Source of the DNA: a virus
DNA: 62,477 nucleotides
Virus record (IMG/VR): IMGVR_UViG_3300025286_000008
Coordinates: 1-62,477 of that record
Direction: 5' to 3' (one strand)
The notes under the pieces were generated by a model. The model had not been told where the DNA came from. It saw nothing but the letters and a program-made list of their open reading frames with translations, and did not search any database. The position numbers were made by a program, and so were the translations under genes. Shown here piece after piece: positions 14,023-57,347 of this stretch; the first letter of the stretch is position 1; each line of letters begins with the position of its first letter.

Positions 14023-14465
14023 TAGGAGTTATTGCGGACGATATTGTTTATTCTCCACAAAGCTATTTTCTGTTTAAAGCTTTAAATGAATTGTCGGTCA
14101 GTAATGACTGCTATTTGTTTGCTAGCTCTGTACAGCATCTACCAATGAACAACAACTTTGCTATCATGCAGCAGTTAGAAGCATTGCATCATCCAGGTAT
14201 ATTGATTAGCACTTCTATGATGAATACTCAGATATTGGCACACAGCTTAACTGCTAGTAAAAAATATTATTATATGTGGTCTTTTGAGTGGTGTGCATTA
14301 AAACAATTTGGAGCGAACCAGCTAGACCATATCTTTCATAATGATGAGATAAACATTATAGCTCGCAGCAACACACATGCCGATAAAGTGGCACAGTTGT
14401 TTAAGCCAACAGTTGGAGTAGCGTATAATTGGAATGCTAAACAGATACAAAAGGTACTGTCATGA
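14019..14465 (+). CDS. Small Rossmann-like protein of glycan cluster
   Basis: A 148-residue protein. I chose the ATG at 14019 (MIGVIADD), which gives an ATGA overlap with the previous gene and has AGGAGAG eight bases upstream; an in-frame ATG 27 bases earlier lacks such a site. It resembles the N-terminal half of a GT-B protein (MIGVIADDIVYSPQS; later NIIARSNTHADKVAQLF), without a donor-binding half. It may be a remnant or a partner protein. Confidence 0.45.
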   Translation: MIGVIADDIVYSPQSYFLFKALNELSVSNDCYLFASSVQHLPMNNNFAIMQQLEALHHPGILISTSMMNTQILAHSLTASKKYYYMWSFEWCALKQFGANQLDHIFHNDEINIIARSNTHADKVAQLFKPTVGVAYNWNAKQIQKVLS

Positions 14466-15250
14466 GTCAGTTTTTTGCCAAGTCAAATAAGATACGCTTT
14501 GAAAGATACAATAAGTTGTATCATGATGAGAATATGAGTTGGGGTGAAATCGCCAAACTCTTTGATACGTATCCAAACAGGGTGCGTCGGGATGCCCATA
14601 AGCTTGGCGTAAAATCTAGAGACAAGTCTGAGGCTCAAAAAGTGGCCTTATCAGAAGGTCGTCAATCCCACCCTACAGAGGGGAAGAAGCAGTCACAGGC
14701 TACCAAAAACAAGATAAGTGAGAGCCAGGGGCAGGTGTGGGACACCCTCACAGCAGAAGACCGCGAGAGACGCTCAAAAATAGGCGTAGAAGCGTGGAAT
14801 AAAAAAACAGATAGTGAGAGAGCGGATTTTTTTAAAAGGTCACAGGAGGCCATACAGAGAGCCTCACAGCATGGCTCTAAAGTAGAGCTATTCCTATTCG
14901 ATAATCTCGTCCAGAACGGATATAGGGTAGATAAGCACAAAGAGCACCTTTTACAGAACGAGAGATTCCATATTGACCTGTATGTACCTAGCTGTCGTGT
15001 GGCTATAGAGGTAGACGGGCCTATTCATTTTGAGCCTTTATTTGGGCAGGAAAAGCTGGAGAAAAGGCAAGCCCTAGATCAAGCAAAAAATGGCCTTATT
15101 CTTTCTGCTGGAATGGCACTTATTAGAGTACGATTAAATAAGAGGGAATCTCAAAGATACCTTCGGACTATCTGGTCTAATGTTTCAGATATATTAAATA
15201 AGGTAGAGGACAAGTTTCCACCAAAACACGAGAGGTATTTTGAAATATGA
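14462..15250 (+). CDS. Putative homing endonuclease, Vsr/DUF559-like
   Basis: A 262-residue protein with an N-terminal helix-turn-helix (WGEIAKLFDTYPNRVRRDA). A run of NUMOD3-like segments rich in S/K/E follows, residues about 55-130 (for example KNKISESQGQVW). The nuclease domain has a conserved Glu in SKVELFLFDNL, then FHIDLYVP and AIEVDGPIHFEP. This E...D...D-x-x-H pattern is that of Vsr-fold nucleases of the DUF559/EDxHD type, which include free-standing phage homing endonucleases. It overlaps both neighbours by ATGA, so it has been fitted neatly into the operon between the glycan genes and recombination genes. Confidence 0.72.
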   Translation: MSQFFAKSNKIRFERYNKLYHDENMSWGEIAKLFDTYPNRVRRDAHKLGVKSRDKSEAQKVALSEGRQSHPTEGKKQSQATKNKISESQGQVWDTLTAEDRERRSKIGVEAWNKKTDSERADFFKRSQEAIQRASQHGSKVELFLFDNLVQNGYRVDKHKEHLLQNERFHIDLYVPSCRVAIEVDGPIHFEPLFGQEKLEKRQALDQAKNGLILSAGMALIRVRLNKRESQRYLRTIWSNVSDILNKVEDKFPPKHERYFEI

Positions 15251-36336: not shown

Positions 36337-36663
36337 TTACCTATCCGATACAAAGAGTAAACCGTCGCCTTCTAAAATTTGACCATCGGTGGTAGTGACT
36401 TGCACTTCCATGCGATACTTATTTCCAGTAGTACCACCCTCTATCCAGAAGGTTGCCTTACTATTAGTCTTAGTCCCATCTTCTAAGCCGGTCATAGTAA
36501 TAGTCAGGTCGGAAGTTGACCCGTCTATTTTTTCTGATGTAATAGAATCTAAAACGCTAATTTCTTCTGTAGCACTAACCGTCAAGAGGTTGGCAAACTC
36601 CATGCCAAACTTTCTCTTCTCTGCCGGTTGCTTACACAGTTCTTCATTTGCTGTAACAGCCAT
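36337..36663 (-). CDS. Small Ig-like/strand-rich protein
   Basis: A 108-residue protein made mainly of strands, with a T-[IV]-T-M-T-G-L pattern and WIEGGTTGNKYRMEVQVTTTDG near the end. Proteins with a 'W-x-x-G-x-x-G-x-x-Y-x-[VI]-x-x-x-[VI]-x-T-x-D-G-x' segment are common in phage connector regions and have an Ig-like fold. The function is unknown. It lies three bases before the adaptor gene. Confidence 0.5.
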   Translation of the reverse strand: MAVTANEELCKQPAEKRKFGMEFANLLTVSATEEISVLDSITSEKIDGSTSDLTITMTGLEDGTKTNSKATFWIEGGTTGNKYRMEVQVTTTDGQILEGDGLLFVSDR

Positions 36664-36683: not shown

Positions 36684-37358
36684 TTATTTTCTAGCGAATA
36701 TGTAATCGCCTCGCCAGTGCTTCTTGCCTACCGGCCTACCTAGTCCGCAAGCCTCTTTTTCCTCAAAGCCCATTTCGTCAAGAAGTTCTCTACACTTCTC
36801 CATATAGCCAGTGGGATTTTTAGGATCATCACACAACTCTATGTTCATGCACGACACACGCTTCATAAACTCAGTAGCCCCTAGTAACATATCGTACTCT
36901 GCAAACTCTATATCTGCCCAAAGCACAACATTATCTATCTCTGGATGATCTTCCAAAAATGAATCCAAAGTTATTGCATCTACTTCATAACCAGCCGTTG
37001 GATCATGCGGGCAATCATGCCAGCAGTCTCTCAAAAACATATGATTGATTTCACTAGCCACCGTAGTTAATTCTAACTTACAGTTTTTGGAATAAATCGC
37101 CTGGGGATAAAGCTCGCCAGGAAATCCATTCTGCCTCTGAAAATTAAACGCAACAGTAGAAGGTTCAAATCCAATAATTTTTACATCAGGAAATTCTTTA
37201 TGGAAATGTTGACCTTCTCCACCATTCGCAGGGCCAAGAACAAAAAAATACTCCGTAGTCTTAGGAACATATTTAAATATTCTTTCCGCTTGCTTAGGCA
37301 TGTACCAGCCAAATTTACCACCAGCCATTAGCATTCTTTCTTTTCTTTTACTAACCAT
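36684..37358 (-). CDS. FkbM-like SAM methyltransferase
   Basis: A 224-residue class I methyltransferase of FkbM type. FFVLGPANGGEGQHFHKEFP (about residues 38-57) fills the motif I role, IIGFEPS matches the conserved acidic strand end, and AITLDSFLEDHPEIDNVVLW then ADIEFAEYDMLLGA is the family's pattern of L-D-x-[FL] followed by D-x-E-x-x-E. FkbM enzymes methylate hydroxyls, often on sugars. It is set among fibre and connector genes, so a virion glycan or fibre target is possible. The start may be at 37358 or an ATG eight codons later. Confidence 0.75.
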   Translation of the reverse strand: MVSKRKERMLMAGGKFGWYMPKQAERIFKYVPKTTEYFFVLGPANGGEGQHFHKEFPDVKIIGFEPSTVAFNFQRQNGFPGELYPQAIYSKNCKLELTTVASEINHMFLRDCWHDCPHDPTAGYEVDAITLDSFLEDHPEIDNVVLWADIEFAEYDMLLGATEFMKRVSCMNIELCDDPKNPTGYMEKCRELLDEMGFEEKEACGLGRPVGKKHWRGDYIFARK

Positions 37359-37361
37359 TGT

Positions 37362-38051
37362 TTAACGCTCAGGCAAAGTCCAAGCGTTACCTCTTGACTC
37401 TAACGTCCAACCATCACTACCCCTCGCCTCTACTAGCCACGATACTTCCCTTCGGTCCATAACCCAAAGGACTTCATCGCACTCCATCACCCACAACACT
37501 CCGCGACCGTCAAGCTCCCAAACTTCTTCAAGCCTGATAATCTCAATCGGAATATTTTTACTTCCGAAGGTTCCACCAGCCCCGCCGTGACTTTCAATCG
37601 GAATATCTTTCCGAAGGGCCGCCAAAGCAAGCAAAGCTTCAACGGAAATATTCTTATTTAAACTACCTAAAATAAGTGAGTGGTCAACAGGCAGATTATT
37701 GTTTACTGAGGCATCTCTTAAATGCTCAACATTAATATCATCCTGGCCTCTTAACCCCTCTAGTATTTCAATAGCCGTTTGTTCTGTAAAGCCGTCCAAC
37801 TGAAGATACTGATCAATAGGAATGTTGTTCCCTATGCTCGCTACCTTCAAATGCTCCATTCCGATATTTCTTTGAAGATTTAACGTAGCTAAATTTTCAA
37901 CCGGAATATTATGTACAATACTTAAAAAGGTTAGTCCTGCATCCGTGTAGTACCAACCGTAAGTCGAAACTGGCGTTAAATTATCAGTTAAAGTTGGATC
38001 GGTAAACCAACCATGAGTCGAAACTGAGGTTAGGTCTGTACCGATTGCCAT
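37362..38051 (-). CDS. Virion protein with 14-residue IPIE repeats
   Basis: A 229-residue protein. The N-terminal 45 residues contain a two-fold repeat (SVSTHGWFTD, PVSTYGWYYTD). Residues about 47-175 are about nine imperfect 14-residue repeats of the form N-[IL]-x-[IV]-E-x-L-x-x-L, for example NIPVENLATLNLQR. The C-terminal 55 residues are repeats of about ten residues centred on W-x-[LV]-[EMP]-x-R (VLWVMECDE, VLWVMDRRE, AWTLPER). The same repeat and a similar Trp-rich end are found in the much longer protein at 45722-48529. Likely a fibre or appendage component; I know of no assigned family. Confidence 0.7.
   Translation of the reverse strand: MAIGTDLTSVSTHGWFTDPTLTDNLTPVSTYGWYYTDAGLTFLSIVHNIPVENLATLNLQRNIGMEHLKVASIGNNIPIDQYLQLDGFTEQTAIEILEGLRGQDDINVEHLRDASVNNNLPVDHSLILGSLNKNISVEALLALAALRKDIPIESHGGAGGTFGSKNIPIEIIRLEEVWELDGRGVLWVMECDEVLWVMDRREVSWLVEARGSDGWTLESRGNAWTLPER
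37520..37913 (-). repeat. Shorter coding array of the same 14-residue repeat
   Basis: About nine units inside the 229-residue protein, such as NIPVENLATLNLQR, NIGMEHLKVASIGN and NISVEALLALAALRK. They match the consensus of the long array at 45850-47310, so the two genes share a module. Confidence 0.65.
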
Positions 38052-38726: not shown

Positions 38727-40364
38727 CTAAACCCACATCTCTTTCCAGGTGGCAGTCATTACTAACTGACCCGTATGGGAAGCATCCACGGACTCTGCTG
38801 TAATAGAAATCGGTGCTTGTGTAACACCGTCTGCTAAAAGCACCACTCCGATAGTGTCTTGAAAAATTTCCTTATCTTGAACAAAGCTATGCTTCAAGGT
38901 TTCTGTATTGCCTGCTAAATCAGACCATCTCAGCAGCCCAAAATTACTACCGACCGTAATTCCGCTAGCGGCTTCGTCCCATTCAGACGATGATCTATCA
39001 GCAACGCTTGTAAAAGATGCACCATCAAGCACTCCAGCGTATCTAACTCTTAGAATTACTGGGCCTGTACCAACATTAGCCGCCGATATCTCGGAGAGTA
39101 CAGTAGTCGTTCTATTGGTGAGGCCAAGGACACCCGTAGCTGCCTGAAAAGACATAATGGGTATTTCGCCAGAAGCTTGCGTCACGGTTTTAACCTGTGA
39201 GCTTTGAACGCTCTGAGTAACAGCCTGTCGCTTAGGCGTTCCAATGTGTTGTATAATAGCTCCGTTGCTAATCAACTCGCTAGAAGATGCCGCAGTGCTA
39301 GTATTTTCACATTCAAAGCGTAGTGGCAGTGTGGCCTTTTGGGTTGCTACAGCGGAAAGAGTGTTAGAATTTTCAAAACAGTGTGCCAGGGTACGCAGAC
39401 CATCTTCTTCGTGAACTCCAAACCTGACAACGCCAGCACCCAAATCTGCATAATCAATAAAGTACATATTGTTCTTTGTAAGGTCTAAGTTCATTCGCTC
39501 GGAGCCGTCGAGATCATCGTGACTCCACGAGCCCTGTACCACCCTAGTATCTAGACCTCCAGAACCAGCCGCACTACTTCTCTGCACAACATACAGAGTA
39601 GTATCGTCTAGCTCCCAAAACCATCCGTCGTTTGCATCAAATACTCCCCATCGTCGTCTTACATTTGATTTACCCGCATCTCCTACTCTAACGCCAAGAG
39701 TAGCACGATTCATAGTTCCTGGCTGTTGAGGATGATAATAATGAGAGGTTCTACGTATAAACGAACCAGCATCGGTAGCTGATGTGTCAAGTGTAACCGA
39801 CCTTGAGTCGCTACCGTAAGATACTACGCCGCTAACGCCGCTTTCAGTCCAAAACTCCCCTGCGGTTTCATCGTATGGGTAGACATATTGGCGTATAGAA
39901 TGTACTTCTTCTGAAACCTGACCACCAAAAGAACTGATCGCTGGTGGGCCATCAGGGAATTCTACCGTGCCAGCACCATCAGAGTTGATACACCAGCTTC
40001 TACTAGGATAGTCTCTATCAACGACAGTGTGTTTTTGATAATACAGAGACTCTGTGGTCGTGCCCGCCTTGAAAACACCAAAAGTAACAGCACTTACATT
40101 TAGATTTTCACTTACTTGAAATGTACCGACTAGACTTTCTAGCTCTAGAAATAATTGACCTTCGCCAGCAGCAAAGCCTTCAGTGAATTTACCAACCACT
40201 AATGCGGTAGCAGAGCTTGTACCCCCCACTACTGTTTGCCCAGGCTCAAAAAGATTGGGGGCTGTTTCGCCCGTAAACTCTATAATAAGCCGAGAAGCAG
40301 AACCAGATTTCTTACCTGTACTGTCGGGTGGTAGTTGAACGTATCCGCGTTCTAAATTAGACAT
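38727..40364 (-). CDS. Fibre-like structural protein
   Basis: A 545-residue, strand-rich protein with repeated Gly, Ser and Thr. A VRRRWGVFDANDGWFWEL segment near residue 241 is like the core of lectin-like or fibre-knob domains in phage structural proteins. No catalytic motif seen. It lies between a terminator and the fibre-associated 224-residue gene. The role as fibre or decoration protein is inferred. Confidence 0.55.
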   Translation of the reverse strand: MSNLERGYVQLPPDSTGKKSGSASRLIIEFTGETAPNLFEPGQTVVGGTSSATALVVGKFTEGFAAGEGQLFLELESLVGTFQVSENLNVSAVTFGVFKAGTTTESLYYQKHTVVDRDYPSRSWCINSDGAGTVEFPDGPPAISSFGGQVSEEVHSIRQYVYPYDETAGEFWTESGVSGVVSYGSDSRSVTLDTSATDAGSFIRRTSHYYHPQQPGTMNRATLGVRVGDAGKSNVRRRWGVFDANDGWFWELDDTTLYVVQRSSAAGSGGLDTRVVQGSWSHDDLDGSERMNLDLTKNNMYFIDYADLGAGVVRFGVHEEDGLRTLAHCFENSNTLSAVATQKATLPLRFECENTSTAASSSELISNGAIIQHIGTPKRQAVTQSVQSSQVKTVTQASGEIPIMSFQAATGVLGLTNRTTTVLSEISAANVGTGPVILRVRYAGVLDGASFTSVADRSSSEWDEAASGITVGSNFGLLRWSDLAGNTETLKHSFVQDKEIFQDTIGVVLLADGVTQAPISITAESVDASHTGQLVMTATWKEMWV

Positions 40365-40451: not shown

Positions 40452-42995
40452 TTAGGGATTACTATAGTTCCTTTCCAGAGCACTCGTCAGTGAGAACACA
40501 TTAGTAGATGTTCTGGTAATAGTACCCGCAGTTAATACATACTGAGCAGTATTCAGTCCAATAGCCACAATGGTTACGGGAGCATCAGTAGCAGCCGAGG
40601 CAGTTCCTCGTTGAGTATTACCGTCATAATCAAATTCATAAGTAACGGGAGAAGCCGACGGATTTAATGTAGTCATATCGACATCTGAAGTATCTTGCAC
40701 AATAATCGCATCGTCCGTACCGAAGTCTCGGTTAGTATCATCTCCAGAGTCATCATTAGTAAAGAACACTACAATCTTTACATCGGCATCATCAATCAGG
40801 TTTGAATTGATGGATATAGAGATCGAGGAGATAAACGCAAAGTTTCGGCCAATACCGAGAACGTCGTTGAGCGTAATATTATTCTTCTCGCTCGCATTCA
40901 ACTCATCAATATACATATTGAAAGTCGTCGCATTCGGAGAAGCAAAGCTCATTAACAGGTCCGTAACGTCGCCACGGAATACACCGCTTGCGAAGTCGAT
41001 ATCGGCAATTCCACGGAAGTCGCTGTCATCGAGATTTGTTGCAAAGCCTCGACGTAGCTGCTTCTGAACCCACTGGAAGGTTTGTGCCAGTGTTCCATCA
41101 TTTCCGAACATTCTCCAGTTCCAGTTATAGCTGATACCTTGCAAGGCTCTAACGAATCCGTTTTCACCACTCATAGTGGCAGTCGTATCCGCAGCATTGG
41201 TGGTAATGGTATTAGCCAACACCACTCGTACCGTATCATCAGGCGTGGTAGTGGTTGTAAATCCAGAGATAACGTAGGAAGCATCATTTGCAGAGTCTTC
41301 CGCATTGGCCACGTACAGGATTCCGCCAGTTACGTAGTTATCAGTGTAGAAGCTGCCGCCATCACGACGCTGAATCTGGTCAGGAGCACCCTGAGTAAAC
41401 ACTAGGCCAGAAGTCGCATCTGCACCAACATTGGTTGCAACCTCTCGCTTATACTGAGCATGCATACCTGGACGGTAAACTTCAAAGTTAACCGAGCCAG
41501 AAGGAGCCGCATCTGCGGGCCAAGGCTGATCGGTCGTATTAACCGTAATACCAGTTTCATTCAGCAGTGCCGTAACGTCGTACACTCCAACAAAGTCGTT
41601 AAGAGTATCAGTACCAGTAGCCAAGAGGCCAAGCTTATCGCCAACCGCAACGCCAGAGGTGCTAAACAGGGCCGTCGCACTCAACAGATTACCGGAGGTT
41701 GACCATGCCAAGCCGCCGAAGTTCTGAATCGTTCCGTCGGACAGTTCGTTATGACGACGACGCGACTCAACACCGAAGGTGATACTAACGCCAGTTTCGA
41801 CATTAATATTCGGCTCTTGAAGTAGGGTCAGGGAGTTGGCATTTACATCAACAATCTCAAAGTGATCATTGTTAACACCACTATGCAGACCGCTCAGAAT
41901 GATAACGTCTTTTACTTCGGCAATGCCTGTCATGGCAATAGAAGCAGAGGTGAAGACGAAAGTATTTTCCTGGGCCGTTCCAGTAGATGCCGCCGCAATC
42001 ACGCCGTCTGTTCCGGTCGCATTGCTAAGCTGCGTTACATTTTGGTAAATCGCCGTTCCACCAGCCAACTGTCCGTCGGTAGCAGTAATAGCGGGATCGT
42101 CAATATGGGATACGGGGAATCTATTTACGATAGTTTCCAGGCTTGTAACACCAATATCGGAAATCTCGGATTCGGCGTAGGACTTGGTCTTTTTGCGAGC
42201 AAAAATCTTCAAGAAGGCACGGAAGTCTTCCGAAGCACCTACGTCACGAGTTTTAATAGCTTGGTTTACCGGACCAGTCAAAACAAAGTTCTGAGGGTCA
42301 GTGGCCGTACCAGAAGTCGAGTCTACCTGTTGGTAGTATACCTGTGTGTCTGCGTCCAAGCTACCCAGAGTAATAATACCTGCGTACTCTGTGATGGTAG
42401 CACCAGCACTATCCAGTGCGGCCCATCCACCAGTACGAATCAGGTTTCGTGTGTCATCATCACGCCAATCCCAGTCATTATGGCTCGCACCACCGATTTC
42501 AAACTGCTCTCGCGTAATAGACTCTAGCGGGAATACAAATTGAATCAGGTCTACGTGGCCAGCCCCTTGGGTTTTCCACTCTTCTTTAAGGAAAGAGTAT
42601 ACGGCCTGAAGGGTTGCTCCATCAACTACCGTTCCACCAACCGCAGCACTTACTGCATAGCCAACAGTACCTTCACCACTATTAAAAGCACTAGAAACCA
42701 GCAAGCCAGTCTCTGCAACTACTCCAGTGATGGTGTGATGGTTAATATCTTCGCCATTAACAATAGTTAGAATGTCGCCCGATGCAACACCTGAAGTAGC
42801 GAACAGGGCAGAGGTGTCTTGGAACTGTACGGGATATGCGAACAATCCCTGAGTTACCCCATTCTGCTCCCCGATTATCTCAAGAGATACTTTGGGAGAA
42901 GTGGAGTTAATGGGCTTAATACCGATAGTTTCATTGACATAATCAACCAATACTTGCAGTCGATCAAGATTGTCAGGGTCTGTAATAATTGCCAT
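40452..42995 (-). CDS. Large fibre-like structural protein
   Basis: An 847-residue protein with a GGAGAATA site upstream. Its composition (Ser, Thr, Asp, Gly, few Cys or Lys) and repeated DTSALFATSGVASGD / SATALFSTSGVAVGD segments (residues about 60 and 438) point to tandem strand-rich domains of a fibre or adaptor. It ends in LERNYSNP, and the next structural protein upstream ends in FDRNYDNP, so the two share a C-terminal tag. Probably virion surface. Confidence 0.6.
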   Translation of the reverse strand: MAIITDPDNLDRLQVLVDYVNETIGIKPINSTSPKVSLEIIGEQNGVTQGLFAYPVQFQDTSALFATSGVASGDILTIVNGEDINHHTITGVVAETGLLVSSAFNSGEGTVGYAVSAAVGGTVVDGATLQAVYSFLKEEWKTQGAGHVDLIQFVFPLESITREQFEIGGASHNDWDWRDDDTRNLIRTGGWAALDSAGATITEYAGIITLGSLDADTQVYYQQVDSTSGTATDPQNFVLTGPVNQAIKTRDVGASEDFRAFLKIFARKKTKSYAESEISDIGVTSLETIVNRFPVSHIDDPAITATDGQLAGGTAIYQNVTQLSNATGTDGVIAAASTGTAQENTFVFTSASIAMTGIAEVKDVIILSGLHSGVNNDHFEIVDVNANSLTLLQEPNINVETGVSITFGVESRRRHNELSDGTIQNFGGLAWSTSGNLLSATALFSTSGVAVGDKLGLLATGTDTLNDFVGVYDVTALLNETGITVNTTDQPWPADAAPSGSVNFEVYRPGMHAQYKREVATNVGADATSGLVFTQGAPDQIQRRDGGSFYTDNYVTGGILYVANAEDSANDASYVISGFTTTTTPDDTVRVVLANTITTNAADTTATMSGENGFVRALQGISYNWNWRMFGNDGTLAQTFQWVQKQLRRGFATNLDDSDFRGIADIDFASGVFRGDVTDLLMSFASPNATTFNMYIDELNASEKNNITLNDVLGIGRNFAFISSISISINSNLIDDADVKIVVFFTNDDSGDDTNRDFGTDDAIIVQDTSDVDMTTLNPSASPVTYEFDYDGNTQRGTASAATDAPVTIVAIGLNTAQYVLTAGTITRTSTNVFSLTSALERNYSNP

Positions 42996-43257: not shown

Positions 43258-44976
43258 TTACGGATTATCATAATTCCTGTCAAATATCTGGTCAATGCGT
43301 ATTGACGCAGCCGCACTGGTTAATAAGTTCTCTTCTGATCTGAAATACTTGTAGTCAAGATGATGCACCACAATATCTATATTCTGATTGCCCGTAAAGT
43401 TGTAAGTATGCTCAAATGTACCGTCGCCCTCTGATTCAACCCCCGCAACCTGATTAGTGGTATTGCTATTAAACAACCTTACTTCTGACCCTACTACAAT
43501 ATCAGTTAGTGTAAGAGTAACACTATTTTCAATGGTTACTGTACTGTCCACATTTCCGCTATGTGCCGTAGCTGGATTAGAAAGATTAGTAGCCTGAATA
43601 ACCAGATCGCCAGATGTCGCCAAACTAAAGTTGATATCAAAATCATTATTGGAGAACTGGAGGTTGTCGTAAGTGAAGGTTCCAGAAAACGGGTGTTCGA
43701 TACCAGCACCACTGCCGTCCACATTAGTATTAGCCACAAAGTTAGAGTTCTTAATATCTATTCCGGTATGGTTCCATATAAATGAACCCTCTATACCCGT
43801 AGCATTCTGAAAGGTTGAATTCCTAATTACAATTCCAGTATCGCCCACAAATTGAGCCGAGCCATCAATGGTAGACCCGATAAATTCATGACCACTTTCG
43901 GCTGGCCAAGTAATAGCTTCATTAAAGCTACGAATAGAAGTACCGTACAATTGCAACTGCACATTTGGCTCGTCTTCAACAATAAGGGAAATCTTATAAT
44001 CATCGTTCCCCAAAAAGGTCAAACCATTACGACCACGAGCAGTATCGCCATCGCCTACTTTAATTCCTAATTCGACTTCTGTTCCAGATGTAGTATTTCC
44101 AACAATATTAATCTGCTGAAAAGTATCTGGAATAGCATTGACATATTGTGTTACGCCAAACGTATCAATATATTGGGGGTTGTTAAAGCTAATAACCTTG
44201 TTAATATCGTCAAATACAGTACCACCAAGATTGCCTGTGCCAATTTCTAGATAGCCCTGCAACTGCAAAATTGTATCAGTTGCTTCAAGAGATTTGACTA
44301 CACCGTATTGATTGGCGTCTGTACCTGCGTCTGCCGCAAGGAGATCGCCAAAGCCGTCTTCTTGAGTACCGCTTCCATAAATTCTTAGGCCAGAGCCAAT
44401 ATCAATAGCGTCAATAAGTGCGGCATCTGCACCACCCTTAGCGTTATTATCAGCAACAAAGAAAACTCCTATACCTCGAATAGAGGCTAAGCTAGACAGT
44501 GCAAATGTTCCACCAGAGGCAGTTGGGCGTAAACTAGGATCAACGACCATCTTCTGCCAACCACCAGGATAGTTCTCACCACCATAGAACGTCCAAATAG
44601 CCCATGAACTATCTATAGAGGCTGGAGCATTATCGGTCATAACAATGCCAAACCCTCCAAGTGCCCCTCCAGCAGCTGTACCTGTAGAGGTAGGAGCTAA
44701 AAGAGCATTTCCCCACACCCAAACAAGTTGATCCTCTTCAGCACCGCCAGAAGAAAAATCCCAACTTTGCACAGTATCGTCAAAATGCAAGGTGACAAAA
44801 CGTGAGGCTGTGGGATAGTCTGTAGCAATAGCAGCAGACCCTTGCTTAAACAATGTGGCTACAGCTACACTGGGAGACTGTCCACCACCCGCGATCTTGG
44901 TTGCGGTATAGTCCGTAACTGCGTCGGCAACATCGGCTCGGGAGCCAATGAATTCTGTAGTCAGCGGAGTCGGCAT
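43258..44976 (-). CDS. Fibre-like protein, probable beta-helix
   Basis: A 572-residue protein with MPTPLTTEFIGSRADVADAV at the start. Residues about 330-480 carry short strands with regularly spaced Asn, Ser and Thr (GTSIRSFNEAI, GSTIDGSAQFVG, GIVIRNSTFQNAT, GIDIKNSNFVANT), the pattern of a right-handed beta-helix. The C-terminus (RIDQIFDRNYDNP) matches that of the 847-residue protein downstream. Likely a tail fibre or spike part. No enzyme active site is recognised. The start overlaps the previous stop (TAATG). Confidence 0.6.
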   Translation of the reverse strand: MPTPLTTEFIGSRADVADAVTDYTATKIAGGGQSPSVAVATLFKQGSAAIATDYPTASRFVTLHFDDTVQSWDFSSGGAEEDQLVWVWGNALLAPTSTGTAAGGALGGFGIVMTDNAPASIDSSWAIWTFYGGENYPGGWQKMVVDPSLRPTASGGTFALSSLASIRGIGVFFVADNNAKGGADAALIDAIDIGSGLRIYGSGTQEDGFGDLLAADAGTDANQYGVVKSLEATDTILQLQGYLEIGTGNLGGTVFDDINKVISFNNPQYIDTFGVTQYVNAIPDTFQQINIVGNTTSGTEVELGIKVGDGDTARGRNGLTFLGNDDYKISLIVEDEPNVQLQLYGTSIRSFNEAITWPAESGHEFIGSTIDGSAQFVGDTGIVIRNSTFQNATGIEGSFIWNHTGIDIKNSNFVANTNVDGSGAGIEHPFSGTFTYDNLQFSNNDFDINFSLATSGDLVIQATNLSNPATAHSGNVDSTVTIENSVTLTLTDIVVGSEVRLFNSNTTNQVAGVESEGDGTFEHTYNFTGNQNIDIVVHHLDYKYFRSEENLLTSAAASIRIDQIFDRNYDNP

Positions 44977-45719
44977 TATGTAGTTGATCCATCAATTTGT
45001 AGTTGATAAAAACTATTCTGTGCAGCATCTCCAGCATTCAAGTCAAGCTGAAGCCATACGCCCAAGTAACCCAAGGGTTGCAAGTCTGTACCTGGAACTC
45101 CACTAGCACCACTTCCGTAAGGGCCAGTACCGGTCGGCACTGCAACTCTATTCGCAACGGACTGCGTTGAGGCCAGAGTATCCTCGGTAGCAAATGCCAC
45201 CTTAGTATAAACACCAGTAACTACTTCAGTAATGGTAGCTCCCAGCAAGGCATTAACAGTATTGAGATTCATTAAGTAAATTTTTTCGTACAGTTCTTTA
45301 TCACTGCCACCAGGAGCAGCCGCCGTAGCATCGTAAAACGGCCTTCTAAAGCCCGATTCATTAGCATAGATACTTCCGATGCCCGAATTGGTTAGATGAT
45401 CTCTAAGGACGATTTCGCCGCTTGCGGCCTCATCATTTTGTACAATCAAGATACGCTCAAACGCCTGTGTACCAGAAACCAGGGTGGTTCCAAGCAGAGT
45501 AATATTATCGGTTACAACACTACCAGCGGTATTTCTACCCGTAATAGTCAGCGTACCCGAGTCACTCTCAGTGCCTGAGCCTTCCACTACGTCGGTAGCA
45601 ATTATATCTGTAAATACTACACGGATACCACTATTGATAGCTCCACCGCTAGTATCTGTATCATTAACCGGCATGTCTTGGCTGGCATAGAGGACAATGT
45701 CACTATCTACAACACTCAT
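44976..45719 (-). CDS. Virion structural protein
   Basis: A 247-residue protein with SxVVDSDIVLYASQDMP at the start and strand-rich composition. I chose the ATG at 45719: GGGAG lies eight bases upstream, while the two earlier in-frame ATGs are badly spaced. Related proteins with a 'IVxYxSxxMPxxDxxxxGGAI' start occur near fibre genes in other phages; the role is thought structural. It follows the 935-residue repeat protein. Confidence 0.6.
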   Translation of the reverse strand: MSVVDSDIVLYASQDMPVNDTDTSGGAINSGIRVVFTDIIATDVVEGSGTESDSGTLTITGRNTAGSVVTDNITLLGTTLVSGTQAFERILIVQNDEAASGEIVLRDHLTNSGIGSIYANESGFRRPFYDATAAAPGGSDKELYEKIYLMNLNTVNALLGATITEVVTGVYTKVAFATEDTLASTQSVANRVAVPTGTGPYGSGASGVPGTDLQPLGYLGVWLQLDLNAGDAAQNSFYQLQIDGSTT

Positions 45720-45721
45720 AT

Positions 45722-48529
45722 TCATATCTCCCAAGTATTATTATTTTCTATTATCCAGTTGGTTCTATAGTCGTTGGCAATCCAATCCGAAGCTCTAGGG
45801 ATAAGTACCCAATTTAGTCTACTTATGAACTGGCCAAAAAGTCTGCGGGTAGCTAAGGGAATTTCCTCGCTCTCAGATAAATACACTAAAGCCTCTATAG
45901 GTATAGACTTTATAGTGGAAATAGCTACAGATGAACGAACCTCCACCGGAAGATCGTTGAAAACACTAACCGAGCCTAAACCCTCTGTAGGCAGATTATG
46001 GTCAATAGAGGCAAGTACCTGTAAAGTACTTAAAGGTAGGTTATTTTGACTTGCAATCCCCGCTAAAACCTCAATTGGCAATTGCTGGAGAGCTATAGAA
46101 GTAACAGACTCTAAAAGCTCTATTGGCAACGAATGATCAATGAAAACGCTACTTATATTATCAATATATGTCTGTAACGCATTGGTGAAGAGCCCCATAT
46201 TATCTAAGGCAGACTTATGACCTAAAGAAAGCTGTGATAAATACTCTATAGGAATATTACTCAATACTCCTACCGATGTAGAGCCGTCGCTTTCAACTGG
46301 GATATCATGACTGGAAGATAACCCTTGCAGAAACTCTATTGCAGAATTTCTATTAAGTGAGGAAAGAGTTAATAGCTGCTCTATAGGAGGACCGATATTA
46401 GGAGCCAAGCTCTTCAAGTCCTCTACTGGCATATTCGTAGAAGGAGCTAGTCCCTGTAAAGATTCCAAGGGAAGATTACGTATCACCCCGACTATTAAAG
46501 CCCCTCTAATCTCAACCGGTATACTCTCATCTTGAGACAAAGACCCAAGGTTCTCAATTGGGCTTCCATTGTTATCGGCAATTGAAGTTAACAGTTCTAC
46601 AGGCATCTGATCTAAAAGACTAATATCTAATAGATTTTCAACTGTCATATTATCCGACAATAGAAGCGAAGCTAGGTTTTCTATCGGGAGGTTAGTTGAA
46701 GGAGACAGCCCCTGCAAGTGTTCTAGGGCAGCAGTTTTATTTAAAGTAGATAGATCAGCTAAGTTTTCTATGGGAACACAACAATCTCGGATAACGTTGA
46801 AAAATTCCTCTGAGCCTATCACTTCAGTTGGTATGACGCCATTTTTAGATAGAGAAGCTAGAATTTCTTCGGGGGTGCTACCCAAAGCTTGTAGCCCCTG
46901 AAGGAACTCTATAGCCAACTGTTGTTTAATGCCAGCTAACGTTAGTAGGCTTTCAATATTAATATTATTACTGTTTGATAAAGAAGCTAAAATTTCCTCT
47001 GGAGTTGATCCCAATGCAGCAATACCCTGAAGCCCCTCTACAGACAACTCTCTAACAATCCCCGAAACGGCTAGCAGGTTTTCCTCTACCATATTCCTAA
47101 TAAAGGCCAGCCGCAATAGTGTTTCAATAGGAATATTATGAATGGGTGATTGCTGACCCAGGCTCTCTACAGGATTATCATTATTGCCAGATAAGCCTAG
47201 AGTATTTTCTATTAATATATTTCGACTACCCGCAAAGGTTAGTAGCGTTTCTGTAGGTATATTGCTGTCTACACTTAGACTTAGTAAAGTCTCTACGGAC
47301 ATATTTCTAATGCTTTGTACAGCAGTTTCACCACCCGCTGCAACGTTCCCCGATTCAATAGCCAAATAAATAAATGGATAACTAATAGCAAAGTCATTTT
47401 CCTGAACCCTATGCGAAAACGATCCGCTAGTAAACTCGCTTAGCTGGCTACGGATAATGGAGCCGTCTGTCCATTCGGTATAGATAAAGTGATCTTCTTT
47501 ATGGTGTCTATGCGTATCGGTGGTTCCAAGGTTATGTTGATTAGTATAGGCACAAGACTGTTCATTAACCCCACTAATGCCGCTGGCTCCAGCACCTATA
47601 CAATTCAATACGCTACTAGCGTCTCTACCCGTAAGACCCATAACAGCACCAGGAGTCCAGGTAGAAGTAGTAACCGTGGTTAGTGTTCCTACGGTGGCAT
47701 TTTCAGCGGAATGTCCGACCTGAACCTGATTGCCGAGCTTTAATGCTAATGCAAAATAACAAACCTCAAACGAAGGGCTTACTGTAGTCCAGTTAAGCTC
47801 ATAACCACTAGAGCTAACGGCATGAACATTGGCAACTTCAAAGCTGGTATTAGTCCACAATACAGAATCAATTATTGTTGAACTCCAGTCAGCTTCTACG
47901 TCGCTAGTACCCACTGCGTCATTGGATGACATAGAGGTACATCTATCATTATTGCCATCAGAAAATCCAATAGAGAGAGGTACGGCGGCTCTTAACTGAG
48001 GATCACTAACGGTTGTAGCGGTAATTATATATATAAGGTCTGGTTCAAATCCCGCATTATAGTGTACCGTTTGAGTGCTTAAAGGTGATTGAATCAGCCT
48101 TACTTCTGCACCGCTTATAGCACCCGAATCTAAAGCTAAGACATTAACTAAGACTCCTGAACTCGGGGCGTTTTCCACGTTTAGGGTAAATCCATCCGAA
48201 TCTACACTAACAATGGAAGCTTGGTAGCCTGTATCATCTACTAGCTCTTCTAGACCTAGAATGCAGTAGCGGCTGTCAGATGCAGCGTTTTCGATAGTGG
48301 CAACAACATTGTCTGTACCACGCCAAGCAATAGAACCTGCTCCGCTCGTTCCCGAGGCGACGGCAAATCCTATTCCTCCTTGCCAAGTAGATTGAGTAGT
48401 ATTGCCGGTTGTTGCACCACAATGCCATAGAATACTAGCTCCAGGTGTAAAGCCGAAGCCGTCAACAACCTGAGTGCCAGTGCTATTGTTAAGAAGAAAG
48501 CTATCAAAATGTATTCCACCAGCGGGCAT
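45722..48529 (-). CDS. Fibre-like protein with about 33 IPIE repeats
   Basis: A 935-residue protein. I chose the ATG at 48529 (MPAGGIHFDSF), with AGGAA six bases upstream; the longer frame would start with TTG inside a terminator hairpin. Residues 1-390 form two strand-rich, fibre-like domains; FGFTPGASILWHCGA and AGFEPDLIYIITA look like two versions of the same motif. Residues about 407-893 are roughly 33 imperfect 14-residue repeats, consensus N-x-P-[IV]-E-x-L-x-x-L-[AS]-x-x-x (NLPIENLASLLLSD). The end is Trp-rich (NWVLIPRASDW, NWIIENN). The repeat region probably forms an elongated rod. Located next to the capsid gene, so a fibre or head appendage. Confidence 0.72.
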   Translation of the reverse strand: MPAGGIHFDSFLLNNSTGTQVVDGFGFTPGASILWHCGATTGNTTQSTWQGGIGFAVASGTSGAGSIAWRGTDNVVATIENAASDSRYCILGLEELVDDTGYQASIVSVDSDGFTLNVENAPSSGVLVNVLALDSGAISGAEVRLIQSPLSTQTVHYNAGFEPDLIYIITATTVSDPQLRAAVPLSIGFSDGNNDRCTSMSSNDAVGTSDVEADWSSTIIDSVLWTNTSFEVANVHAVSSSGYELNWTTVSPSFEVCYFALALKLGNQVQVGHSAENATVGTLTTVTTSTWTPGAVMGLTGRDASSVLNCIGAGASGISGVNEQSCAYTNQHNLGTTDTHRHHKEDHFIYTEWTDGSIIRSQLSEFTSGSFSHRVQENDFAISYPFIYLAIESGNVAAGGETAVQSIRNMSVETLLSLSVDSNIPTETLLTFAGSRNILIENTLGLSGNNDNPVESLGQQSPIHNIPIETLLRLAFIRNMVEENLLAVSGIVRELSVEGLQGIAALGSTPEEILASLSNSNNINIESLLTLAGIKQQLAIEFLQGLQALGSTPEEILASLSKNGVIPTEVIGSEEFFNVIRDCCVPIENLADLSTLNKTAALEHLQGLSPSTNLPIENLASLLLSDNMTVENLLDISLLDQMPVELLTSIADNNGSPIENLGSLSQDESIPVEIRGALIVGVIRNLPLESLQGLAPSTNMPVEDLKSLAPNIGPPIEQLLTLSSLNRNSAIEFLQGLSSSHDIPVESDGSTSVGVLSNIPIEYLSQLSLGHKSALDNMGLFTNALQTYIDNISSVFIDHSLPIELLESVTSIALQQLPIEVLAGIASQNNLPLSTLQVLASIDHNLPTEGLGSVSVFNDLPVEVRSSVAISTIKSIPIEALVYLSESEEIPLATRRLFGQFISRLNWVLIPRASDWIANDYRTNWIIENNNTWEI
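45850..47310 (-). repeat. Coding array of 14-residue (42-base) repeats
   Basis: The part of the fibre-like gene that codes for the IPIE repeats. Units are diverged at DNA level. Some are close pairs, for example LQG[IL]xALGSTPEEILASLS occurs twice about 40 residues apart, and HLQGLSPSTNLPIENL and SLQGLAPSTNMPVEDL are near-copies. The pattern suggests growth by duplication of one or more units, followed by drift. Confidence 0.75.
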
Positions 48530-48542
48530 AGCGTTCCTATAC

Positions 48543-48579
48543 AAAAAAAGCCGATGGCGACAATTGCCACCACCGGCTT
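48543..48579 (-). terminator. Strong terminator after major capsid gene
   Basis: On the minus strand a 14-bp stem (AAGCCG paired with CGGCTT, continued inward by GTGGTGGC and GTCGCCAT with G-T pairs) closes an AATT loop (48579-48548) and runs directly into seven Ts (48549-48543). It lies 22 bases after the capsid gene stop and would isolate the capsid message from the fibre genes. Confidence 0.87.
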
Positions 48580-48601: not shown

Positions 48602-49603
48602 TTAGAAGGAGCCTAGAAGCACTCGGCGGTTATCCAGAGCCGCAAAGCCATGCTCTGCCCAACCGTACAAACCAGCCCGACGTTGACGATGAAGCGTGTC
48701 ATCCTCAAAAATCTGGAGGCTGTTACGAACCGGCATTACAAAGCTGTCGTTCGAGCTAAGATCAAGACCCACTACGATCTGTTGATCGCCAGCAGGCAAC
48801 GTGCCGCTAAGATCACTCTCGTAGAAAATCTGGTACTCTTGGTCTTCGCCAAGCTCATCAAGGTCATGAAGATTGACCTGGAAGATACGCACGAGCATTC
48901 CGCCATCCTGGGTGATAAGCTCACGACGAGTAACCTCGTCAACTTCATCAACACCCCAGTTACGGATATCTTCGATACCTTCAGGGCTCATGTAAAGGTC
49001 AGTCATCTGACCACGATTTACCGAGCTACCCGTGTTGCCACCGCCATTACGACGCATGGTAACTTTCATCAGCGACACAAGTCGCTTCGAGAACTGATCT
49101 GCTGCCGCATCGGGATCGTAAACCAAAATGTTACGATCAACGCCAGCCGAAACCAGTGTATGCCAACCGTCATCGTTCATCTTCTTGGTGAACTGGGCTC
49201 GCATTACGTCCATCGCACGACCAACAACGTCCCAACGGGCATCGCGGGCATACTTCAGGAGCCAATCAATCGAAGCACCAACGTCATACGTCGGAACCAA
49301 GACGTAGTCACCTTCAACGTGCCGCTCTGGAATACGACCATGAGCAGGAATCGTGTAGGCAACGTAATCTTTTTCATTACCGGGGGCAACGAAATCAAGC
49401 GGGAATTCGCTCGTAGCACCAGGAGCCAGAGGAATCGGCTCGAAGATACCGCCAAGGATATCTCCACTCATAACGCCCTTACGCAGGGGAGCTTCAAGGG
49501 CTTTCGCCAATTCCGCTACACCGGCCAAGGACTCTTCCTTCTTTTGGCTACCCGATTGACGAAGCAATTCCGTCATTTCAGGGGTATTTTTCAAAAAACT
49601 CAT
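48602..49603 (-). CDS. Major capsid protein (HK97-like)
   Basis: A 333-residue protein placed after the scaffold and decoration genes. An AGGAGAA site precedes the ATG and a strong terminator follows. It begins with a helical N-arm (TPEMTELLRQSGSQKKEESLAGVAELAKAL), then a strand-rich E-loop-like region and a spine helix (LLKYARDARWDVVGRAMDVMRAQFTKKMNDDG). The C-terminal part (QIVVGLDLSSNDSFVMPVRN, LHRQRRAGLYGWAEHG) is like that of HK97-fold capsid proteins of large phages. C-ending codon preference agrees with high expression. Confidence 0.85.
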   Translation of the reverse strand: MSFLKNTPEMTELLRQSGSQKKEESLAGVAELAKALEAPLRKGVMSGDILGGIFEPIPLAPGATSEFPLDFVAPGNEKDYVAYTIPAHGRIPERHVEGDYVLVPTYDVGASIDWLLKYARDARWDVVGRAMDVMRAQFTKKMNDDGWHTLVSAGVDRNILVYDPDAAADQFSKRLVSLMKVTMRRNGGGNTGSSVNRGQMTDLYMSPEGIEDIRNWGVDEVDEVTRRELITQDGGMLVRIFQVNLHDLDELGEDQEYQIFYESDLSGTLPAGDQQIVVGLDLSSNDSFVMPVRNSLQIFEDDTLHRQRRAGLYGWAEHGFAALDNRRVLLGSF

Positions 49604-49630: not shown

Positions 49631-50086
49631 TTAAACTATGTTAATTTCTACCTTTGCGAAGCCATCGGCATCAAGAGTAGACAACCAACGACCAACTTTA
49701 GCACTGCCAGCTTGCTCGTTGCCACAGGTAAGTGTGCCATCGAGAGCAAAGTGAGCACCACTACCAATAACCGGCGTACCGGAAATTTGGTCGGTAACAA
49801 CCGTGCCATGACGCAGCAGGGTGACTTTGCCACCGAGTTGCACTTCGTCTTTGTGTGCGTTGTACTGTTGACGGGTAAGGTCAATGTTTACAACGTCATT
49901 CAACAACAGACCAGCCGGTTCGTCTTCGTAAGCCGCAGCATCACGGACCAAAGCCGCCGAGTCATCCATAGCCGCACCCGAACCGCCGGTTCCGTGAACT
50001 AACATGATGCCACGCTCTGCTACTGCATCGCTCTTGAAATAGCTAATATCTGTCAGATGTTCTACGCGATCACCTTTTAAAGCCAT
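49631..50086 (-). CDS. Head decoration protein candidate
   Basis: A 151-residue protein between the scaffold and capsid genes, the usual place of lambda gpD-like decoration proteins. An AGGAGAA site lies six bases before the ATG. The sequence is mainly strands (VQLGGKVTLLRHGTVVTD, GRWLSTLDADGFAKVEINI) and Gly/Ala-rich, without enzyme motifs. The 'G-x-x-x-x-L-D-A-D-G-F-A-K-V-x-[IV]' end appears in other phage head proteins near the capsid gene. Confidence 0.6.
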   Translation of the reverse strand: MALKGDRVEHLTDISYFKSDAVAERGIMLVHGTGGSGAAMDDSAALVRDAAAYEDEPAGLLLNDVVNIDLTRQQYNAHKDEVQLGGKVTLLRHGTVVTDQISGTPVIGSGAHFALDGTLTCGNEQAGSAKVGRWLSTLDADGFAKVEINIV

Positions 50087-55944: not shown

Positions 55945-56422
55945 ATGCTTCTCTCATGATCTTATAAGCTTCTTGCTCGGCCTTTAATTTGTCGCCACAA
56001 AAGATAATCTTGATACCGTAGTCTTCAGCCGTGTGCAAAACCTTCCTGATATACTTAACAGCAATGCGAGGCTTACCGTTGGCCCAGCACATTCTTTTGC
56101 GTACAGCAGGAGGGACTTTGGCAGAATGAGGATATCGTTCTATATCTTCCTCGTTAAACTCAAAGATAATATAGGAGTGAGGTATTTCTGACAGCCTCTT
56201 CATGCAATCGCCCCAGCGTTTCTCTACGCAGTTGCGAGCAAACTCCTGTATCGTTTCTTTTCGCTCTATAGCTAAAAAATCCTCCAAACCTTGGAGGCTA
56301 TAGTCGCCGGTGTCTAGTTTCTCAATAAGAGTACCAGCACAATGGCTATCCTCGTCAAAGGACCAGCCATGTGCCAGTTGCTCTCTTGAGTCTCTAATAA
56401 CAGTGAACTTACTTGGTTCCAT
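55922..56422 (-). CDS. ERCC4-type (XPF/Mus81-like) nuclease
   Basis: A 166-residue nuclease. I chose the ATG at 56422 (MEPSKFTVIRDSRE), because the upstream extension lies wholly inside the protease gene. The ERCC4 core is visible: VIRDSREQ near residue 8, KLDTGDYSL near residue 36, and FLAIERKETIQEF, giving the GDx(n)ERK motif. Such nucleases cut branched DNA. It is coupled to the terminase gene by a 23-base overlap, which suggests it may resolve branches in replicating DNA before packaging. It overlaps the protease gene by 14 bases. Confidence 0.83.
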   Translation of the reverse strand: MEPSKFTVIRDSREQLAHGWSFDEDSHCAGTLIEKLDTGDYSLQGLEDFLAIERKETIQEFARNCVEKRWGDCMKRLSEIPHSYIIFEFNEEDIERYPHSAKVPPAVRKRMCWANGKPRIAVKYIRKVLHTAEDYGIKIIFCGDKLKAEQEAYKIMREAYEIYVQR

Positions 56423-57347
56423 TTGGATAAAAATCCAAGGTTGCCTTATCTGAGTCCAGCTTGTGTTCAAGCGTGGGATAAGCCTTGGCATCCTTAGTGA
56501 AGGCACGAATAGTCGAGGGGGTATTCTCCAGATTGATATCGTAGATTTCTTCCAACGACGGTACTTTGGCACTAGGGTCTAGCAACCACTGAACCTCGAA
56601 GCGTTCGGCCCAGTTGTAGATACGACGAGCGGGAACGATAAAGTTAAAAGTCTCGCCAGCACCACGAACCAACATACCCATATACTTGCCATCTTTGGTG
56701 AAGACACCACCACCCGACGAGCCAGGAAAAGCTGGGCATGAGGTCTGGTCAAACAGCGTACCAGCCCCATTACCCAACTGAAGGAGACGGCCCGTTTGAG
56801 AAACGTTGCCGGTTGTCATCGAGTTAGAACCAGCCTGACCCAAAAGCGATCCAACATGGATAAGCTCAGTGCCGACATTGCATACTGCATCATTGTAAAA
56901 GGTGGCGTTCGCCGTGGTGAATCCAGGCTTACGAACCAAGAGAAGTGCGAGGTCGTGTCCGTGAGTAGCATCCGAATACAGAATGACTTTGCAGTCCATA
57001 ACGTGTTCGCCAACCTTGCGACCATTGACTTGATCTTCCTTCAAGATTTGTACATCTCGGAATTCGACCAAAATCTTCGGAGTTCCGTTCGGACCAATAA
57101 TGGTACGAGTAGAGCGAAGGTCTTCAATAACATGGGCGGCAGTAAGGACAAAGTTCATAGAAACTGTCTTGCCGTCCGTGTCAACAACATCTCGGGTAAT
57201 GAGAACGCCAGAGCCTTGCGAACCGCCCGCACGAATGGTGACACTAACATCCTGCAACAGTTTCGCTACGTCGTTTGCAATGGCAACATTCGCCAGCATA
57301 GCAACGGTAGTCATGGCCAGGAACGCATGTGTAGAAAAACGCTTCAT
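56409..57347 (-). CDS. Exported trypsin-like serine protease
   Basis: A 312-residue secreted protease with a signal peptide (residues 1-24, cleavage likely after A-I-A). All three catalytic residues are present: His72 in VLTAAHV, Asp132 in HDLALLLV and Ser211 in PGSSGGGVF. GSGVLI near residue 45 is typical of the S1/HtrA-like fold. No PDZ domain follows; the last 90 residues are unknown. AAGGAG lies upstream of the ATG. The protein should act in the periplasm or outside. Its place between the ERCC4 nuclease, terminase and a glycan gene pair is unusual, and its target is unknown. Confidence 0.85.
   Translation of the reverse strand: MKRFSTHAFLAMTTVAMLANVAIANDVAKLLQDVSVTIRAGGSQGSGVLITRDVVDTDGKTVSMNFVLTAAHVIEDLRSTRTIIGPNGTPKILVEFRDVQILKEDQVNGRKVGEHVMDCKVILYSDATHGHDLALLLVRKPGFTTANATFYNDAVCNVGTELIHVGSLLGQAGSNSMTTGNVSQTGRLLQLGNGAGTLFDQTSCPAFPGSSGGGVFTKDGKYMGMLVRGAGETFNFIVPARRIYNWAERFEVQWLLDPSAKVPSLEEIYDINLENTPSTIRAFTKDAKAYPTLEHKLDSDKATLDFYPNGTK

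Follow-up and report, generated by a model that had tools for sequence, protein, structure and literature searches.

A tandem array of 14-residue units, which apparently represents a new repeat family with a familiar kind of role, outside every named family, was identified in a long-tailed metagenomic phage. The array is judged, at slightly better than even probability, to serve a virion appendage as a shaft or spacer of adjustable length, flanked by a swappable N-terminal domain and by a C-terminus with a tryptophan repeat. This reading is based on a unit count that varies while the ends of the proteins stay constant, on a gp77-like adaptor gene nearby, on the exchangeability of the region between the capsid and gp77-like genes, and on the constraint seen on the protein. 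The DNA analysed here (the window) is a virus record in IMG/VR; it comprises 62,477 bases and encodes a terminase, a likely cement protein, a major capsid protein and a tape measure protein of 2351 amino acids, the last of which identifies the phage as a long-tailed one.

The repeat protein is encoded on the minus strand. The frame 45722-48544(-) is open with a TTG at 48544 as the listed start; the ATG at 48529 is the likelier start, because it is preceded by the ribosome-binding-site-like sequence AGGAACG, and gives a protein of 935 amino acids (45725-48529(-)). About 400 N-terminal residues (47315-48529(-)) are followed by the array at residues 413-892 (45869-47308(-)) and by a short C-terminus with tryptophans at positions 912, 921, 930 and 938 (45725-45811(-)). 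A sequence-only reading of the window had placed a 14-residue repeat at 45850-47310, and this was borne out by a scan with a 14-position matrix, in which 31 units were scored, compared to a mean of 1.5 and a maximum of 4 in shuffled proteins. Since this matrix was partly trained on the long protein itself, the array was retested with a matrix from the relatives L009 and L010 alone; 22 units were found, with a mean of 0.3 and a maximum of 3 in shuffles. The spacing between units is 14 residues in 19 of the 30 steps, 15 in five and 16 in four, with one step of 19 and one of 42. The 42-residue step contains about two decayed units (residues 776-803, 46136-46219(-)), so that the 31 scored units agree with the earlier estimate of about 33. 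Identity autocorrelation shows maxima at lags 14 (z 10.3) and 43 (z 5.5), with a depletion at lag 7 (z -3.4). From 150 units, the consensus [ND]-[NSK]-[IL]-P-[IV]-[ED]-x-L-[GA]-[SG]-[LI]-[SLA]-x-x was derived, with Glu or Asp at position 6 in 98% and Pro at position 4 in 75%; for the window array it is N-N-I-P-[IV]-E-x-L-[GA]-S-L-[SL]-x-x. A coiled-coil fibre shaft was ruled out by the depletion at lag 7 together with the prolines at position 4.

When the window was scanned in six frames with the matrix from L009 and L010 alone, one further multi-unit protein was identified, with four strict units. This protein of 229 amino acids (37362-38051(-)), which the earlier reading had not mentioned, is matched by the long protein in tblastn (E 4e-8) and was further characterised by matrix scans and an alignment. 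LTSxSTxGW is duplicated at its N-terminus; about eight units follow when scored with the full matrix, and then six C-terminal tryptophans spaced 9-10 residues apart. Twelve array proteins of related phages in IMG/VR follow one layout: the N-terminus, which may be variable or conserved, leads into between 2 and 39 14-mers, and these into a tryptophan C-terminus. The long protein is known from three phages, with 31 units in the window, 33 in the array of L010 and 39 in L009. For the short protein, two units were counted by eye in L044, three in L013, five in L029, six in L018 and L019, seven in L012, eight in the window and L014, 12 in L027 and 14 in L016. The relatives of the short protein keep both ends with the exception of L029, where the LTSxSTxGW-type N-terminus is lost. 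The 135-residue short repeat protein of L029 (3443-3850) begins with MPTPLTVE, as does the 572-residue protein encoded at 43258-44976, which suggests that these two genes were fused by a deletion. In L021 and L022, the N-terminus of the short protein is present, and the units and the tryptophan tail are both missing.

All 12 aligned array proteins end in a motif of roughly W-x-[LIV]-x-x-R-G-x-x, with four to six tryptophans, so that array and tail travel as one module. This motif, likewise absent from the earlier description, was searched as a consensus in the phage collection without significant matches. It constitutes a second uncatalogued repeat, with a tryptophan at every ninth residue and always located behind the 14-mer array, at 45725-45811(-) and 37365-37520(-) in the window and in 10 relatives. 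In an AlphaFold2 model of the short protein obtained with nine sequences, the pLDDT was 38 overall; the tryptophan tail alone reached 63-75 and was modelled as strands. The three long proteins share an identical C-terminal tryptophan spacing, and each has a different N-terminus, which is beta-helix-like in L010, nearly missing in L009 and probably beta-rich in the window. On the basis of weak internal similarity (E 0.015-0.024), the N-terminal region of the window protein perhaps consists of three related sub-domains; it gave no match among phages in tblastn.

The near-copies in the array had been taken to show unit duplication. This can be seen directly in L009, where units 24 and 27 are 100% identical in DNA and make duplication-driven expansion visible. 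In the window, the pair named at the time, STPEEILASLS (residues 513-523, 46976-47008(-), and 556-566, 46847-46879(-)), was located by matrix scan and does exist, but its codons indicate that it is old: the two copies of GSTPEEILASLS (residues 512-523 and 555-566) differ in 8 of 12 codons, all synonymously. Over the whole window array, the codon difference between units at common residues is 0.641 versus 0.637 expected from random draws, which likewise points to old copies. Between L018 and L019, the short proteins gave a dN of 0.038 and a dS of 0.278. Retention of residues under randomised synonymous codon choice, and a low dN relative to dS, would be expected if the protein sequence is under constraint.

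The repeat had been suspected to be undescribed, and profile searches of protein and structure databases gave no convincing match. The array, its consensus and the short protein reached no family above cutoff in Pfam, PHROGs or NCBIfam, with best scores remaining sub-threshold, and a three-unit profile searched against the PDB retrieved only the de novo toroid dTor (E 0.03-0.04), with no single stretch being significant. No convincing match to the repeat proteins was found in 50,697 phage records or in GTDB genome contigs, and tblastn searches of phages with the whole long protein, its N-terminus and the short protein did not link them to any annotated fibre or receptor-binding protein. In pattern-based scans, which find mainly near relatives, the array-bearing IMG/VR contigs all came from one clade of related phages; of the scans with the consensus array, two retrieved a single viral relative each, a W-rich unit variant gave none, and GTDB genomes gave none. 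In tblastn, the consensus weakly matched a Thermus phage tape measure (E 9e-4). Further weak tblastn matches, namely the Oceanospirillum GJ44 'discoidin' protein, whose proline-rich repeat differs, and ICP2 and a faecal contig, were rejected as unrelated.

For the fold, the earlier reading had proposed a strand-like P-[IV]-E core. This found no support in the pattern P-x-E-x-L-x-x-L, which is that of a helix start, or in an AlphaFold2 model of seven window units, built with 19 non-overlapping array segments, in which each unit forms a short helix in register and strands are absent, though at a pLDDT of 58 and a pTM of 0.37. A 79-row alignment of overlapping windows was dropped, since its rows were aligned by overlap and not by register. 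The hydrophobic moment of unit positions 4-12 is highest near 110 degrees, and by its composition (17% L, 9% I, 6% V, few charges) the array falls on the folded side in a charge-hydropathy plot, unlike a disordered chain. The helices in register, the composition and the moment argue for a shaft with helical units; the low AlphaFold2 confidence, a Foldseek search of the array model with nothing at E <= 0.001 in PDB or BFVD, and a periodicity that is not cleanly helical weaken it. Among the top, non-significant Foldseek matches of this low-confidence model (E 0.6 or worse) were some helical solenoids of the LRV, TPR and ankyrin type, families to which the array has no Pfam match. The strongest hydrophobic periodicity of the whole array is about 2.8 residues, accompanied by a 2.0-residue component in the window; the 2.8-residue peak is not diagnostic, and possibly compatible with a beta-solenoid. 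Such a fold, with one 14-residue coil per unit and the same appendage role, would account for the dominance of this period, for hydrophobic residues at positions 3, 5, 8, 11 and 13, for an I/V-rich position 5 and for the strict conservation of the acidic position 6. It is considered unlikely, given the helix-start pattern of Pro 4 and Glu 6 followed by L-x-x-L, the strongly helical propensity of GSTPEEILASLS, and the strand-free model. The low confidence of the model and its unresolved packing between units would also suit a flexible multivalent tether, in which the units are short linear motifs that each dock a partner and no rigid rod exists; Asn/Ser-rich loops and a length free to vary point in the same direction. 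The very hydrophobic, charge-poor array on the folded side of the plot argues against it, and the tether is regarded as slightly less probable than the beta-solenoid.

The long protein is encoded in the head/neck cluster of structural genes. The major capsid protein is encoded at 48602-49603(-), identified by its similarity to the major head protein of Bacillus phage G (20% identity over 94%, E 2e-6) and by a weak NCBIfam match to an HK97-fold capsid, and a likely capsid cement protein at 49631-50086(-) matches PF22758 (E 4.5e-4) and PF23982 (E 1.7e-4) with scores that do not reach the Pfam cutoffs. The long repeat gene lies directly downstream of the capsid gene, and both repeat genes are located between it and a gene for a Gp77-like protein (36337-36663(-)), a homologue of gp77, the podophage GP4 protein that Pfam calls a fiber-tail adaptor (PF23148, E 8e-12, 46 bits versus a cutoff of 27; PDB 8jou_D, E 4.8e-5), which had also been overlooked. 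A repeat gene is present upstream of the gp77-like gene in L009, L010, L012-L014, L016, L018, L019, L027, L029 and L044. In each of the three phages with a long repeat gene, this gene is adjoined by a conserved neighbour of 252 amino acids (44976-45734(-) in the window; 66% identical in L005). Other large proteins occupy the stretch between the capsid and gp77-like genes in L011, L013, L036, L038, L040 and L041, and judging from these gene orders it looks like an exchangeable appendage slot. In L031, L032 and L033, the gp77-like gene directly follows the capsid gene, and the entire region between them is absent. Pfam and PHROGs searches of the relatives' slot proteins identified none as a fibre, with one sub-threshold cement match, so that their being recognised tail fibres was not confirmed; this further weakens the shaft reading.

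The closeness of the long repeat gene to the cement and capsid genes may instead indicate head decoration, with the long protein as a capsid-bound fibre whose array lies on or projects from the capsid, the tail adaptor being irrelevant. The same-slot protein of L013 weakly matches Phage_cement_2 (E 0.0012), but with 19.7 bits against a cutoff of 24, and the gene at 38727-40364, between the long and short repeat genes, matches a head-and-packaging PHROG (E 4e-46). The short protein shares the repeat and the tryptophan tail but is encoded beside the gp77-like adaptor and away from the capsid gene, and head decoration is considered improbable, on a level with the beta-solenoid. That the repeat proteins are secreted or intracellular and are merely located in a structural cluster is very improbable: the cluster does contain an FkbM-type methyltransferase gene, and a virion location is deduced from gene position, but the place between the capsid and the connector and tail genes is kept in all relatives carrying the repeat. 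The methyltransferase gene (36684-37358(-), PF05050, E 9e-8) separates the short repeat gene from the gp77-like one, and none was seen at that position in relatives with listed gene order.

For the virion shaft, we infer a helical solenoid, its elongation, its virion location and its attachment partner as follows. Each 14-residue unit would most likely form one short amphipathic helix and a turn, and the units would stack into an elongated solenoid, the length of which is set by the copy number. In the long protein, the N-terminal domain would serve as an exchangeable functional head, and the tryptophan repeat, which all carriers share, is the best candidate for an attachment or oligomerisation element, perhaps towards the neck or tail via the gp77-like adaptor encoded downstream. 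The constant end of the repeat proteins is thus the C-terminal one; many phage fibres attach via their N-terminus, and this counts against the appendage reading. A more specific version is doubtful, namely that the repeat has a new fold and forms a solenoid in which every 14 residues contribute one short helix or beta coil, that copy number sets the reach of the appendage, and that the tryptophan nonapeptide, a second new repeat, forms a cap docking on a gp77-type adaptor.

Compared to the podophage system of the GP4 fibre and gp77 adaptor (PF23148; PDB 8jou, which we take to be a structure showing both fibre and adaptor), the window shares a clear gp77 homologue near its repeat proteins, which makes an adaptor-plus-appendage arrangement plausible. 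In contrast to that system, the repeat proteins match no PDB chain, and the window phage, judged by its tape measure, is not short-tailed. A 14-residue helical solenoid unit, if real, would be well below the size of about 24-34 residues that is usual for helical repeats of the LRV, TPR and ankyrin type, and might be of use as an element in protein design. Tandem repeats in a phage protein are also known from the BACON domains of crAss-like phages, the evolution of which has been followed across lineages (PMC6949934); there, the unit is a whole folded domain, unlike the 14-residue unit described here, and no sequence relation was found in Pfam. If the array is a shaft, the clade would represent a natural series of lengths (2 to 39 units, the ends being constant) in which the evolution of appendage length and its effect on adsorption could be studied. 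The repeat profile now covers so-far unannotated proteins of environmental phages.

Several further features were observed in the window. Two different large proteins, encoded at 43258-44976(-) and 40452-42995(-), end in an R-N-Y-x-N-P-like motif. Virus Rctr197k and Maribacter phage Panino share a portion of one neighbouring gene only. An HNH/homing endonuclease is encoded at 14462-15250(+), and a gene near the terminase (56409-57347(-), PF13365, E 5e-15) codes for a trypsin-like protease, perhaps one for head maturation.
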